Assembly (NCBI GenBank): GCA_018267315.1
Contig: JAFDYS010000006.1
Coordinates: 1 to 64,000, forward strand
Direction of reading: 5' to 3'
DNA: 64,000 nucleotides
Origin: Bacteroidota bacterium
GTDB lineage: Bacteria > Bacteroidota > Bacteroidia > Chitinophagales > UBA10324
In this document: piece after piece, positions 3,857-11,504 of the stretch
Layout of the letters: each line of letters starts with the position of its first letter
How positions within the stretch are numbered: the stretch's first letter is position 1
Notes under the pieces: model-generated
The model's database searches: none
Told to the model about the DNA's origin: nothing
The model's input: the letters and a program-made list of their open reading frames with translations, nothing else
Position numbers and translations under genes: made by a program

Positions 3857-4297
3857 ATGATAATCACTTTCGGCAAATACCATTTCAGAACGAAAAAAGA
3901 AGGTGATCAGCAGTTCATTTTTGACATCATCAGAAAAAAGTTTGTCGCGCTCACACCGGAAGAATGGGTGCGGCAACACTGGATTCATTATCTGATTAAA
4001 GAAGCACAGTATCCGCGCTCGCTGATTGCTGTGGAGATGAACATTACCGTGAATCAGCTTTCGAAGCGCTGCGATATTGTTGTTTATGATCGCGACGGAA
4101 AACCGTTTCTGATTGTTGAATGCAAATCGCCCGACGTGAAAATCTCGCAGAAGGTTTTTGATCAGATCGCGCGCTATAACCTCACACTTCAGGTGAAGTA
4201 CCTCATTGTTTCAAACGGCAAGCAACACTTCGGGTGTGCGATTGATTTTGAAAAGAGGAGTTATAAATTTCTTGAGCGACTACCTGCAATAAATTAA
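3857..4297 (+). CDS. Orphan type I restriction HsdR N-terminal-domain protein
   Basis: 146 residues consisting only of the PD-(D/E)xK nuclease-like domain found at the N-terminus of HsdR. Visible motif: RCDIVVYDRDGKPFLIVECK, which supplies the Asp and the E-x-K of the active site. There is no helicase domain and no hsdM or hsdS nearby, so this is not a restriction system. Stand-alone versions are common in Bacteroidota and often lie near holA, as here. The cellular role is unknown; nuclease activity is plausible from the intact motif. The palindromic repeat 3769-3842 is just upstream. Confidence 0.75.
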   Translation: MIITFGKYHFRTKKEGDQQFIFDIIRKKFVALTPEEWVRQHWIHYLIKEAQYPRSLIAVEMNITVNQLSKRCDIVVYDRDGKPFLIVECKSPDVKISQKVFDQIARYNLTLQVKYLIVSNGKQHFGCAIDFEKRSYKFLERLPAIN

Positions 4298-5069: not shown

Positions 5070-5104
5070 TCAACAATCAACTGTCAACTGTCAACTGTCA
5101 ACTG
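5070..5104. repeat. Heptamer array, five units, type TCAACTG
   Basis: One TCAACAA followed by four exact copies of TCAACTG. It lies between the convergent stops of the LamG gene and ffh. Confidence 0.8.
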
Positions 5105-7666: not shown

Positions 7667-8059
7667 ATGAAAACAAATTCCAGGAATAAGAAGTACACGC
7701 TCGAATATGTGATACGTTCCTCCCCGGTTATTCTATTCGAATTTCTTTCAACGCCTTCCGGGCTGGCACAGTGGTTTGCTGACGGAGCCAATCAGATTCA
7801 TGATGAATTTATTTTCTCCTGGGAAGGCAATAAGCAGAAGGCGAGAATAGTGGAGCAGGTGGAAAATGAAATGATCAAATTCCGCTGGGAAGGAAGCCCG
7901 GTTGATGAATACGTTGAATTCAAAATCACGCACACTGAAATTACGGGCGACACCGTCCTACTCATCACCGACTTCGCCAATCCCAAAGAGCTGGATGATG
8001 CACAGAAACTCTGGGACAGCCAGATTCATGAACTGAAACTCCGCATCGGCGGATTATAG
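7667..8059 (+). CDS. START-like/AHSA1-type domain protein
   Basis: 130 residues. The segment SSPVILFEFLSTPSGLAQWF followed by FSWEG and a C-terminal helix matches the START/Bet v1-like helix-grip fold seen in small Bacteroidota proteins. These bind hydrophobic ligands or act with chaperones; no ligand can be named. The frame opens at ATG 7625, but ATG 7667 begins the conserved MKTNSRNKKYTLEYVI segment and is preferred. Its stop overlaps the stop region of the next, convergent gene by 6 bases. Confidence 0.75.
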   Translation: MKTNSRNKKYTLEYVIRSSPVILFEFLSTPSGLAQWFADGANQIHDEFIFSWEGNKQKARIVEQVENEMIKFRWEGSPVDEYVEFKITHTEITGDTVLLITDFANPKELDDAQKLWDSQIHELKLRIGGL

Positions 8060-8662
8060 GATCGCGGAAAATAATTCGAACGTCTCTTGTGCAAAGGATC
8101 GCATCCTGCTAATCTGCCGGATTGGAATTTTCCTCGCAAGTTTAATGAATCCCGATCGGGACACACAAGCGATCACTTCCTCAGCGCGCAGCGATTCAAG
8201 TTTCACATAATTATCTAACCCGAAGTGATGGTGCCACGGCGATTCATGGATGCATATCCACACATTTTTATTCTTCATGGCCCTGAGTCTTTCTGTTATC
8301 CTCCTGACTTCCCCTTTATCTTCCACTGATTTCAGTAACGTACAACTCACCAATCGTCCCCACCAGATCATGGTTCTGAAAGCAAGCACTTCCTTTTTTG
8401 AAAACAACTTCGGAAAATCAAGAACGAGATAAGGAAGCCCGAGATAGTTTTCTCCCTTTGATATTTTGCCCACCCACGTGTCCGTTCCTTCGGGGAAATT
8501 AATTGAGGAAAAAGCCGTTGATGATTTGACAGCGAGTTTCACTTCGTTCAGTTCGCGGAGCAGTTTATCTGTGACGTTTCTTTTTAAGAGTAGAAACTCC
8601 CGATCGCCAAGCACTTCAAGTTCCTTTTGCGAAAGCACTAACTTTGGCTGTTGCATCATCAT
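8054..8662 (-). CDS. Conserved hypothetical protein, cytoplasmic
   Basis: About 202 residues with no signal peptide or membrane segment, with both acidic and basic stretches and several aromatic residues (WICIHESPWHHHFGLDNY in the middle). I do not recognise the family. ATG 8662 is chosen although the frame reaches 8683. It is divergent from the Lpt permease gene and tail-to-tail with the START-like gene, overlapping it by 6 bases. Confidence 0.55.
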   Translation of the reverse strand: MMMQQPKLVLSQKELEVLGDREFLLLKRNVTDKLLRELNEVKLAVKSSTAFSSINFPEGTDTWVGKISKGENYLGLPYLVLDFPKLFSKKEVLAFRTMIWWGRLVSCTLLKSVEDKGEVRRITERLRAMKNKNVWICIHESPWHHHFGLDNYVKLESLRAEEVIACVSRSGFIKLARKIPIRQISRMRSFAQETFELFSAIL

Positions 8663-8719
8663 TGAATGGAAGAAGCTAAACATACAGAAAGCATTTCAAC
8701 CGGTGTAGCTCATCACCGG

Positions 8720-10168
8720 ATGAAGAAGTCAACAGCTTCCCTTTCACTCCGGCGCATTGACCTCTACCAGCTCCGGACTTTTGCGGCTCCGTTCGTAGCC
8801 ATTTTTTTCATCACGCTCTTTGTGCTCATCATGCAGTTTTTATGGAAGTATGTTGATGATCTGGTCGGGAAAGGATTATCGTGGATGATCATTGCCCAAC
8901 TGCTCTTTTACGCTTCTGCCAGCATGGTGCCGCTGGCGCTTCCATTGGCCACCTTGCTTTCATCCATGATGACCATGGGTAATCTCGCCGAGCAATATGA
9001 ACTCACCTCATTCAAGTCTTCCGGAATTTCACTGTGGCGCATCACCCGATCGCTGCTCATGCTTTCACTGCTGATTAGTGCGATGGCGCTGGCATTTGCC
9101 AATTATGTGTTACCGGTGGCTAATCTCAAATTCGGTTCCCTTCTTTATGACATCAGGCAACAGCGACCTGCCCTCAATATTAAACAGGGCATATTCTACC
9201 GGGAAATAGAGGGCTACAGCATTCGGGTGGGCAAGAAAGATGCTGACAACCGCACCATTCACGATGTGCTGATTTATGATCACAGCAGCGGCAAGGGCGA
9301 TGATTACGTGATTACAGCAGAGCGCGGCGAGATGTACCTCACCGATGACAAGCGGTTTCTAATTCTTCAGCTTTATAACGGAAACCAGTTCCAGGAATTA
9401 AGCCCCGTAGCCCGACCGGGGAAAAAGTATGAACAGATACGGGTGTCATTTAAAGAATGGAAGAAAGTTTTTGATCTCTCCGAGTTTGCGCTCAGCAGAA
9501 CCGATGAGCGTTTGTTCAAGGATAATTACCAGATGCAGAACATACGCCAACTAAAAGCATCAGCCGATACGCTTCAAATGGATATTACCGGAAGCGCGAA
9601 TAATGCCCGGGTTTTCGCCAAGCCATACTATGCATTTGTTCGTGTGAACATTGACAGCATGCGGCAAACAAATCAACATGCCGACACGTTGGCTAACCGG
9701 TCACTCACTGATTCCATGCTCATTTACAGCAAAGCGCTGAACACGGCCCGCAGTATGAAAGGATTCATTGAATACACGGCAAAAAGCCAGGAAGGAAAAA
9801 TTGATGTGCTGCGCCGCTACCGCATCGAGCTTCAGCGAAAGTTTACACTTTCATTCGCCTGCTTTGTTTTGTTCCTGATCGGTGCCGCACTCGGCGCCAT
9901 CATTCGCAAAGGCGGATTCGGCTTGCCGTTCGTGGTGTCGGTTTTCTTCTTCATCATCTTTTATATGCTTTCCATCACCGGAGAAAAGATGGCCAAAGAA
10001 GGTGTGCTCACACCCTTCTGGGGCATGTGGTTCTCCACCATTATTCTGCTGCCGCTGGGAATCTTTCTGTTCTTCCAGGCCAACCGCGATTCGGCCTGGC
10101 TCAATATTGATGCATACCTCGCCTTCTTCAGACGAAAGCTAAAATGGATTCCCGCAACAAAGGGGTGA
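8720..10168 (+). CDS. LptF/LptG-family lipopolysaccharide export permease
   Basis: 482 residues with the YjgP/YjgQ layout: three N-terminal membrane helices (FVAIFFITLFVLIMQFLWK onward), a long periplasmic beta-jellyroll region (about residues 130-350), and three C-terminal helices. With LptB these permeases pull lipopolysaccharide from the inner membrane toward the outer membrane. Only one permease gene is here; the partner must lie elsewhere. The frame extends upstream to 8666, but ATG 8720 (MKKSTASLSLRRIDLYQLRT) gives the family start. Confidence 0.88.
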   Translation: MKKSTASLSLRRIDLYQLRTFAAPFVAIFFITLFVLIMQFLWKYVDDLVGKGLSWMIIAQLLFYASASMVPLALPLATLLSSMMTMGNLAEQYELTSFKSSGISLWRITRSLLMLSLLISAMALAFANYVLPVANLKFGSLLYDIRQQRPALNIKQGIFYREIEGYSIRVGKKDADNRTIHDVLIYDHSSGKGDDYVITAERGEMYLTDDKRFLILQLYNGNQFQELSPVARPGKKYEQIRVSFKEWKKVFDLSEFALSRTDERLFKDNYQMQNIRQLKASADTLQMDITGSANNARVFAKPYYAFVRVNIDSMRQTNQHADTLANRSLTDSMLIYSKALNTARSMKGFIEYTAKSQEGKIDVLRRYRIELQRKFTLSFACFVLFLIGAALGAIIRKGGFGLPFVVSVFFFIIFYMLSITGEKMAKEGVLTPFWGMWFSTIILLPLGIFLFFQANRDSAWLNIDAYLAFFRRKLKWIPATKG

Positions 10169-10212: not shown

Positions 10213-10247
10213 TCGTAATTAGTAGCTGTATTTAGTGCAGAACCTGA

Positions 10248-10688
10248 TTATGCTGCAAGATGAATCCTGCCATCTTTCAGCTTGAGTACTTTACTCTTAT
10301 ATGCTTTGGTAAGCACGGGATAAATCAATGTGCCGAAGTGTTTCAGGTTCTTGTCCTTCGATTGTTGTTTGAAGAGTGCTTCAATCAACTCAGAAGAGCT
10401 CATCGGTGCATTCTTCGATTTCAGAATAGCGAGGATGTGATCAATGTGCTTGCCTCCTTTACGGTTACGTGTTTTAGGAGCGCCTCCCCGCTTGGCCGCT
10501 TTGGCCGCTTTGGCAACCTTAACTCCGGGCTTGCGTCCGCGTTTGCGGGCGGGCTTGGCGGATGTTTCTTCCTGTCCTGAAAATAATGCAATGGCTTTGC
10601 GGACAAATGAAAGCGATTGCTCGAGTGATGCTTCCTGTTCCTTGAGCATCTCAAGGTTGCTGTTGACAATTTCTTTAAGTGTGATCAT
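10248..10688 (-). CDS. AT-hook and winged-helix nucleoid-type protein
   Basis: 146 residues in three parts: an N-terminal coiled-coil-like helix (MITLKEIVNSNLEMLKEQEA), a linker of about 40 residues rich in Lys, Ala, Arg and Gly that carries an AT-hook-like KRGRKPG, and a C-terminal domain (HIDHILAILKSKNAPMSSS...) with a winged-helix pattern similar to HARE-HTH-type domains. The layout resembles a small histone H1-like or nucleoid protein that binds the minor groove of AT-rich DNA. Function is inferred from composition. ATG 10688 is chosen over 10724 because the promoter element at 10712-10719 lies between them. Confidence 0.7.
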   Translation of the reverse strand: MITLKEIVNSNLEMLKEQEASLEQSLSFVRKAIALFSGQEETSAKPARKRGRKPGVKVAKAAKAAKRGGAPKTRNRKGGKHIDHILAILKSKNAPMSSSELIEALFKQQSKDKNLKHFGTLIYPVLTKAYKSKVLKLKDGRIHLAA

Positions 10689-10757: not shown

Positions 10758-11504
10758 CTAAATTATAGAATAAATTCTGTTCCGCAGCAAATTATGCTTA
10801 TGAAGAAAATGTTTCACACTCGTTGATAAGACTCCCAAACCGTATTTCACACTCCTTCTGAAATTAATGGATGATGCTTCTTCAAAATATTTAGTAGGAC
10901 AAGTGACTTCAGCAATTTCAAAACCGGCCATGAATATCTGTGACAGCATCTGATTGTCGAAAACAAAGTCATTGCTGTTAAGCCGGTAATTTATTTTTTG
11001 AAGGACCTCGCCCGAGAAGGCACGGTATCCCGTATGATACTCCGATAATTTCTCGCCGATGAGCAGGTTCTGAATGAAAGTGAGCATGCGGTTGAAATAA
11101 TATTTGTAAACCGGCATGCCACCTTTTTTAGCGCCTCTTCCTAAGATTCGCGATCCCAACACTACCGGATAAATGCCATTGGCAATGATGCTGGCCATGG
11201 CAGGAATCAGGCGGGGCGTATACTGGTAATCGGGATGAAGCATAATCACAATATCACCTCCCAGCTCAACTGCCTTATCATAACACGACTTTTGATTGCC
11301 GCCGTACCCTTTATTGGATTCATGAACGATCACATGCCGGATCCCGATTTTTTTTGCAAGCTCTACGGTGTCATCACGGCTCGCATCATCCACCAGTACC
11401 ACATCATCCACCAAATCCAATGGAATCTCGCGATACGTTTGTTCAAGGGTACGTGCCGCATTATAGGCAGGCAGCACAACTATGATCTTCTTACCATTCA
11501 ACAT
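10758..11504 (-). CDS. Family 2 glycosyltransferase, dolichol-phosphate-mannose-synthase-like
   Basis: 248 residues with a GT-A fold: VVLPAYNAARTLEQTY at the N-terminus, VVLVDDASRDDT for nucleotide binding, and IVIMLHPDYQY around the metal-binding acidic site. It lacks C-terminal membrane helices, so it is probably a soluble or peripheral enzyme that transfers a sugar from a nucleotide sugar to a polyprenyl phosphate. It lies 69 bases downstream of mqnD on the same strand; no functional link to menaquinone is implied. Confidence 0.82.
   Translation of the reverse strand: MLNGKKIIVVLPAYNAARTLEQTYREIPLDLVDDVVLVDDASRDDTVELAKKIGIRHVIVHESNKGYGGNQKSCYDKAVELGGDIVIMLHPDYQYTPRLIPAMASIIANGIYPVVLGSRILGRGAKKGGMPVYKYYFNRMLTFIQNLLIGEKLSEYHTGYRAFSGEVLQKINYRLNSNDFVFDNQMLSQIFMAGFEIAEVTCPTKYFEEASSINFRRSVKYGLGVLSTSVKHFLHKHNLLRNRIYSII

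Follow-up and report, generated by a model that had tools for sequence, protein, structure and literature searches.

A predicted coiled-coil, AT-hook and winged-helix protein of Bacteroidota, a candidate architectural DNA-binding protein

Here we describe P0001, a 146-residue protein encoded in a 64,000-nt stretch of DNA from a Bacteroidota bacterium (hereafter "the window", meaning this whole stretch). Our best reading is that P0001 works like H-NS or Rok but belongs to neither family: we put at about even the chances that it is a chromosomal architectural DNA-binding protein, H-NS/Lsr2/Rok-like in its working, which compacts DNA and silences AT-rich genes. The analyses below establish the open reading frame (ORF) and the family it belongs to; they give a helix, a linker and a winged helix as predicted parts and show purifying selection on the AT-hook-rich relatives.

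We infer oligomerisation, DNA binding, bridging and silencing as follows. Through its N-terminal helix the protein would assemble into dimers or larger oligomers, the basic linker with its AT-hook would keep a loose hold on the AT-rich minor groove, and the C-terminal winged helix would make a second, firmer DNA contact. By holding two duplexes or coating one, such an oligomer would lead to compaction and to the silencing of AT-rich genes.

The gene and its chromosomal setting

The ORF is intact at exactly the coordinates given by the initial annotation, which had named no strand; it lies on the minus strand (Table 1), and the plus-strand reading of the same interval contains four stops. The start was placed at MITL... 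and not at that of a longer, 158-aa ORF because the aligned relatives back the shorter one.

Table 1. Features of the P0001 locus (positions in the window)
Feature	Position	Strand	Description
Gene P0001	10248..10688	-	146 aa: coiled coil, basic AT-hook linker, winged helix
N-terminal helix, residues 4-42	10563..10679	-	Probable coiled-coil oligomerisation element; AlphaFold2, kept in 5/5 close members, heptad test
Disordered basic linker, residues 43-79	10452..10562	-	pLDDT <50 for residues 48-78 (AlphaFold2); net +14 over residues 41-78
AT-hook-like core KRGRKPG, residues 49-55	10524..10544	-	From sequence; related cores in 3/4 other close members
Winged helix, residues 80-146	10251..10451	-	H80-92, b96-97, H98-108, H115-131, b135-138, b141-144; AlphaFold2
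Intrinsic terminator of P0001	10182..10214	-	Perfect 15-bp stem, then T run
Bacteroidota-type promoter candidate TTTG-N22-TAATTTAG	10758..10791	-	Weak, unconvincing; overlaps the end of the glycosyltransferase gene
Family 2 glycosyltransferase gene	10758-11504		Co-directional with P0001, 69 nt ahead of it
LptF/LptG permease gene (lptF)	8666-10168		Convergent with P0001, its neighbour

A strong terminator had been proposed for the gene, together with a promoter of its own. The terminator is present, read from 10214 to 10182 at the 3' side of P0001. The promoter was not borne out: no sigma-70 match was found ahead of the gene, the best match to the Bacteroidota-type consensus, TTTG-22-TAATTTAG, was reached in 33 of 500 shuffles, and the gene follows the co-directional glycosyltransferase gene closely.

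According to Pfam annotation, the farther neighbours are sigma-70, SRP54, menaquinone-biosynthesis and Maf genes, and these housekeeping neighbours place P0001 in the core chromosome and not in a prophage. Its GC content is host-like (0.473 vs 0.478 for the window), so the gene is either old or derived from a similar donor. A 10-nt direct repeat, TGTATTTAGT, flanks it at 10227 and 10688, and is so short that chance suffices. The phage- or stress-linked role suggested initially gained no ground. A phage origin was rejected, as no match was found in 72,556 plasmids, 50,697 phage records and viral contigs; PHROGs returned only families of unknown function (E 0.006 and 0.1), PADLOC returned no defence-gene match, and for a stress-linked regulator there was no support.

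Three further features of the window were recorded. At 3857-4297 (+), a 146-aa protein consists of the HsdR N-terminal domain of type I restriction alone (HSDR_N_2, E 1.6e-43), the same ORF being without helicase parts. At 8054-8683 (-), a 209-aa protein has no Pfam match, and by reading a similar ORF adjoins lptF in several relatives. At 5077-5104, TCAACTG occurs in four exact copies directly past the SRP54 gene on its 3' side.

Predicted architecture of the protein

Structure prediction was performed with AlphaFold2 on full-length P0001 (six family members in the input, mean pLDDT 73) and on the C-terminal domain alone (seven members, mean pLDDT 77.7), where the fold was repeated. Both models give an H-b-H-H-b-b order, so the C-terminal winged helix proposed by the initial annotation was recovered, and neither model lacked it. 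No additional ligand- or metal-binding domain was found in the model, whose C-terminal domain appears to be a winged helix of ordinary type.

Among the 50 VIA-align matches listed, linker histone H1.8 ranked first (Z 10.0, rmsd 2.3, 68 residues aligned), with H1x at Z 9.9; by title, linker histones accounted for 9 of the 50, with identities of 11-18% in their rows. Tied with H1.8 within a Z of 1 among the matches listed were cullin WHB, Hel308 and regulators including HpaR, BlcR and MecI. Because these other winged helices tie with the linker histones, the "H1-like design" first suggested is fair as a description of shape and does not express kinship. No Rok or Sso10a chain was among the 50 matches listed, an absence that excludes nothing, and no Foldseek match was as strong as E 0.001. 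The HARE-HTH label was not recovered by sequence: PF05066 is absent from the Pfam matches of P0001 up to E 10, and the tie is an indirect profile link through the L005-type proteins considered below. Among sequence matches to solved structures, a designed TPR protein (N-terminal helix only) and NiaR/biotin-repressor-type proteins (winged helix, weak, E 0.088 and up) were set aside.

The N-terminal part of the proposal corresponds to a long predicted helix, with AlphaFold2 pLDDT means of 85-93 across residues 1-30. Its coiled-coil character is moderately marked: the heptad signal reached p 0.013 in the window protein and 0.10-0.18 in the other four close members, with a joint column-shuffle p of 0.027. 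The N-terminal 40 residues are near neutral in the five close members (-2 to +1), the linker ranges from +9 to +16 and the last 68 residues from +8 to +10.

The KRGRKPG core is present in the linker as claimed and is no more than composition would yield in the window linker alone (shuffle p 0.27 for [RKQ]GR and 0.12 for GR.?P). It gains weight because the linkers of relatives also carry cores, with p for the two patterns of 0.019 and 0.18 in G941, 0.006 and 0.012 in G692, and 0.0006 and 0.010 in G761. GR.?P cores number one in the window protein, one in G941 and two each in G692 and G761; the G003 linker has no AT-hook core. At the Pfam cut-off for the AT-hook (PF02178), P0001 is absent from the matches, and the relative L039 passes (21.0 vs 17.4).

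No Pfam or NCBIfam cut-off is reached by P0001. Its best Pfam match is weak, namely WH_Rok (PF23159; E 0.022, 15.3 bits vs a cut-off of 27.6), against which the G003 homolog scores 15.1 bits, and linker histone H1/H5 is absent from its matches at E up to 10. NCBIfam returned no match for P0001 and, for its relatives, weak rows far under cut-off. On sequence comparison, the protein appears to belong to no named family and its own family to be undescribed.

Relatives, gene movement and competing explanations

Besides the window protein, the close family comprises G003 (48% identity), G941, G692 and G761. All of them retain the helix block at the N-terminus as well as the winged helix; their linkers differ in both length and sequence. 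The family is sparse: it was found in 2/60 genomes (its own included), in 2 of the 16 genomes of its taxonomic family and in 3/42 genomes of the order common to G941 and G692. Strong matches occurred in 2 of 298 genomes of P0001's order; class-wide, E <1e-5 was reached in 6 of 395 genomes, two of these six hits being the longer AT-hook-rich family described below. A scan of a genome collection with two query sequences found no match, and with five sequences only three loci, the same proteins as G941, G692 and G761.

Weaker matches were not counted as members. These were the matches in four of the six genomes of the order-wide search (298 genomes; E 3e-4 to 8e-3) and in 17 of the 23 genomes of the class-wide search (395 genomes; best E 1e-4 or weaker). 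The four order-wide genomes gave five places: by reading, L005, L006 and L009 encode a coiled coil and a winged helix, L007 is interrupted by stops and L008 is a short one. In another search, weak profile matches in nine of ten genomes were rejected, the loci read being ABC-F-like (L011) or SurA-type isomerase-like (L010, L015). L005, L009, L035 and L006 are other Bacteroidota proteins with a coiled coil and a HARE-HTH-like winged helix, L006 with three AT-hook cores by reading, and they may be part of a wider undescribed set.

A second, AT-hook-rich family is related through the winged helix. A profile that included two of its proteins matched in 38 of 108 genomes of G787's order, all in family f125 and spread over six genera; the family is single-copy in 37 of these genomes, and in the 38th it lies in two pieces at contig ends. 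Further details rest on 20 fetched loci. In all 20 proteins, an AT-hook close to the N-terminus, a charged helix that is long by reading and a cluster of AT-hooks precede the C-terminal winged helix, and each copy carries 3-7 AT-hook cores. The gene is flanked by a methyltransferase gene (Pfam MTS) in 20/20, which we take to be prmC, and on the other side by what is presumably dxs in 19/20, the twentieth locus being short. Among the 36 pairs that nine of these proteins form, purifying selection is strong in those whose dS is unsaturated (in one of the closest pairs, dN 0.020 vs dS 0.43). The same test is uninformative for the five close members, whose synonymous sites are saturated.

As the f125 profile already contained AT-hook-rich proteins, homology of the winged helices was tested separately by hhalign. 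The alignment of the five close members with the 20 AT-hook-rich proteins gave 98.1% and a score of 67.9 over 63 columns; of 200 column-shuffled controls the best scored 17.4, and the alignment in reverse scored 11.4. Moreover, the first two-sequence profile, without AT-hook-rich proteins, had already found G787 (9.2e-8) and G813 (5.1e-6). By sequence, then, the two winged helices are homologous, and the homology covers the winged helix only.

These data bear on the architectural reading from both sides. It is favoured by the H-NS-like order of parts together with the Rok-like order of winged-helix elements, by the basic linker and last 68 residues of all five close members, and by the AT-hook-rich family, with its several cores, single copy, fixed locus and dN far below dS. 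Neighbours differ among the close members (lptF/glycosyltransferase, MTHFR, MoxR/RecQ, ArdC) and none is common to the family, as expected for targets that are genome-wide rather than bound to one operon. It is weakened by the near-neutral N-terminal helix, the hook-less G003, the modest heptad signal, the sparse close family and a homology confined to the winged helix. The nucleoid-protein role proposed at the outset is thus strengthened by a conserved single-copy relative with many AT-hook cores, but the close family is too rare for such a general role in these lineages.

The main rival, which we consider unlikely, is that P0001 regulates transcription locally: as a dimeric winged-helix protein it would repress a single promoter or a small number of them, perhaps its own or that of the glycosyltransferase gene, and the basic linker would only add affinity. 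Winged helices are a very common fold of bacterial regulators, HpaR, BlcR, MecI and others tied in the structure comparison, and a sparse distribution suits an accessory regulator. However, the five members share no conserved neighbour to regulate, their linker is basic throughout and AT-hook-bearing in most, and the model adds no ligand- or metal-binding domain to the winged helix.

Less probable still is that the close family travels with integrative elements and quiets incoming DNA in the new host, as plasmid-borne H-NS/Rok homologs do. A mobile-element link holds for one relative: an ArdC-type anti-restriction gene directly precedes the G003 copy on its 5' side, and genes for a serine recombinase and a RuvC-like protein lie no more than 7 kb away. 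The whole G003 stretch (L041, 770-14133) runs from serine recombinase, RuvC-like and ArdC genes to the P0001 relative and then to an AcrB-type efflux gene, whose ORF also includes an outer-membrane efflux part. PMC7074111 describes silencer homologs gained by horizontal transfer.

The window copy also points to movement. The glycosyltransferase/lptF junction has no P0001 homolog in 8/8 comparable relatives, namely those with both genes in one fetched locus (five further tested relatives did not have both, and two more were left out), and the G003 copy sits elsewhere. The distance between the two stop codons is -11 to 60 nt in G001, G008, G009, G003, G011 and G007. In G004 they are 305 nt apart with no ORF of at least 45 aa, in G006 714 nt apart with a 216-aa membrane-type ORF in the gap, and in the window 589 nt apart with P0001 between them. 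The simpler reading is a gain of P0001 at this junction in the window lineage; loss in the relatives may have occurred instead. Against carriage by integrative elements stand the empty plasmid, phage and viral-contig searches, the host-like GC of the window copy, which has no adjoining integrase, and the common MoxR/RecQ-type site of two members of one genus (neighbours of L040 judged from ORF sizes only).

That the AT-hook stretches serve as RNA-binding extended AT-hooks is highly improbable. In its favour, Pfam RBR ("RNA binding Region") is matched by the N-terminal KRGRKPGSKNK-type stretch in L079, L081, L088, L095 and L096, five of the six AT-hook-rich proteins scanned, two of them (L095 and L096; 24.9 and 25.1 vs 24) passing the cut-off and three falling below it, but P0001 has no RBR match in Pfam, and a winged helix with a basic linker would point to DNA.

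Significance and comparison with known systems

Silencers of acquired AT-rich DNA are described, in the accessible literature, for Proteobacteria (H-NS, MvaT, MucR), Actinobacteria (Lsr2) and Bacillus (Rok). Within the open-access literature, as far as its available text goes (subscription papers and preprints lie outside this scope), we found no Bacteroidota counterpart and no nucleoid protein of the present design. Tentatively, and on the doubtful side of even, P0001 and its relatives could represent an undescribed Bacteroidota nucleoid-protein class, a coiled-coil, AT-hook and winged-helix bridger that would give the phylum its equivalent of H-NS, Lsr2, Rok and MucR. In one family it would be a core chromosomal gene with 3-7 AT-hook cores, and elsewhere a short silencer that spreads horizontally. 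The conserved AT-hook and winged-helix family offers definite Bacteroidota genes with which the silencer gap can be tested directly. The pair of forms, one core and AT-hook-rich, the other sparse and short, would allow a chromosomal architectural protein to be compared with a mobile one.

Rok of Bacillus (PF23159), as described in the accessible text of PMC6212790 and PMC6936261, resembles P0001 in having an N-terminal predicted coiled coil, a linker and a C-terminal winged helix. The a1-b1-a2-a3-b2-b3 order given for the C-terminal domain of Rok (PMC6212790, accessible text) matches both predicted P0001 models. The linkers differ: that of Rok is, in the same texts, a neutral Q linker with no AT-hook-like motif described, whereas that of P0001 carries +14 over 38 residues and an RGR core. 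Rok uses N-T-R minor-groove residues in a3 and the wing, and the wing position is R, K, K, V and I in the five close members when aligned without superposition on Rok. Membership of P0001 in the Rok family was rejected on its score, 15.3 vs 27.6 bits, and on its charged linker.

H-NS-like proteins consist of an N-terminal oligomerisation region, a flexible linker and a C-terminal DNA-binding domain (PMC6936261, accessible text). H-NS, MvaT and Lsr2 have an oligomerisation region, a basic linker and a C-terminal DNA-binding domain, a domain order that P0001 shares as predicted structure only, and the RGR core of P0001 resembles the Q/RGR motif that the accessible sources give for H-NS and Lsr2. 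The putative DNA-binding domain of P0001 has a different fold from theirs, and its AT-hook core lies in the linker, outside the folded domain. The N-terminus of P0001 is near neutral, in contrast to the acidic one reported for H-NS and MvaT (PMC6936261, accessible text), and its linker and C-terminus are basic as in H-NS-like bridgers.

Linker histones H1/H5 combine, like P0001, a winged helix with a Lys/Ala-rich basic segment; unlike them, P0001 has a probable coiled-coil N-terminus, and it has no linker-histone match in Pfam. The archaeal nucleoid proteins Sso10a and aDCP1/Sul12a (PMC4941522, PMC11894785) are, in the accessible text, likewise small architectural proteins with a winged helix and a coiled coil, but their coiled coil is C-terminal, the order being reversed with respect to P0001, and no AT-hook linker is described in that text. 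Closer to hand, the Bacteroidota proteins L005, L009 and L035 have, like P0001, a coiled coil followed by a winged helix, with a profile match to the winged helix of P0001 (hhalign 92.4%, E 5e-7); unlike P0001 they are without an AT-hook linker, and one of them (L005) shows a weak HARE-HTH match below cut-off (E 0.03).
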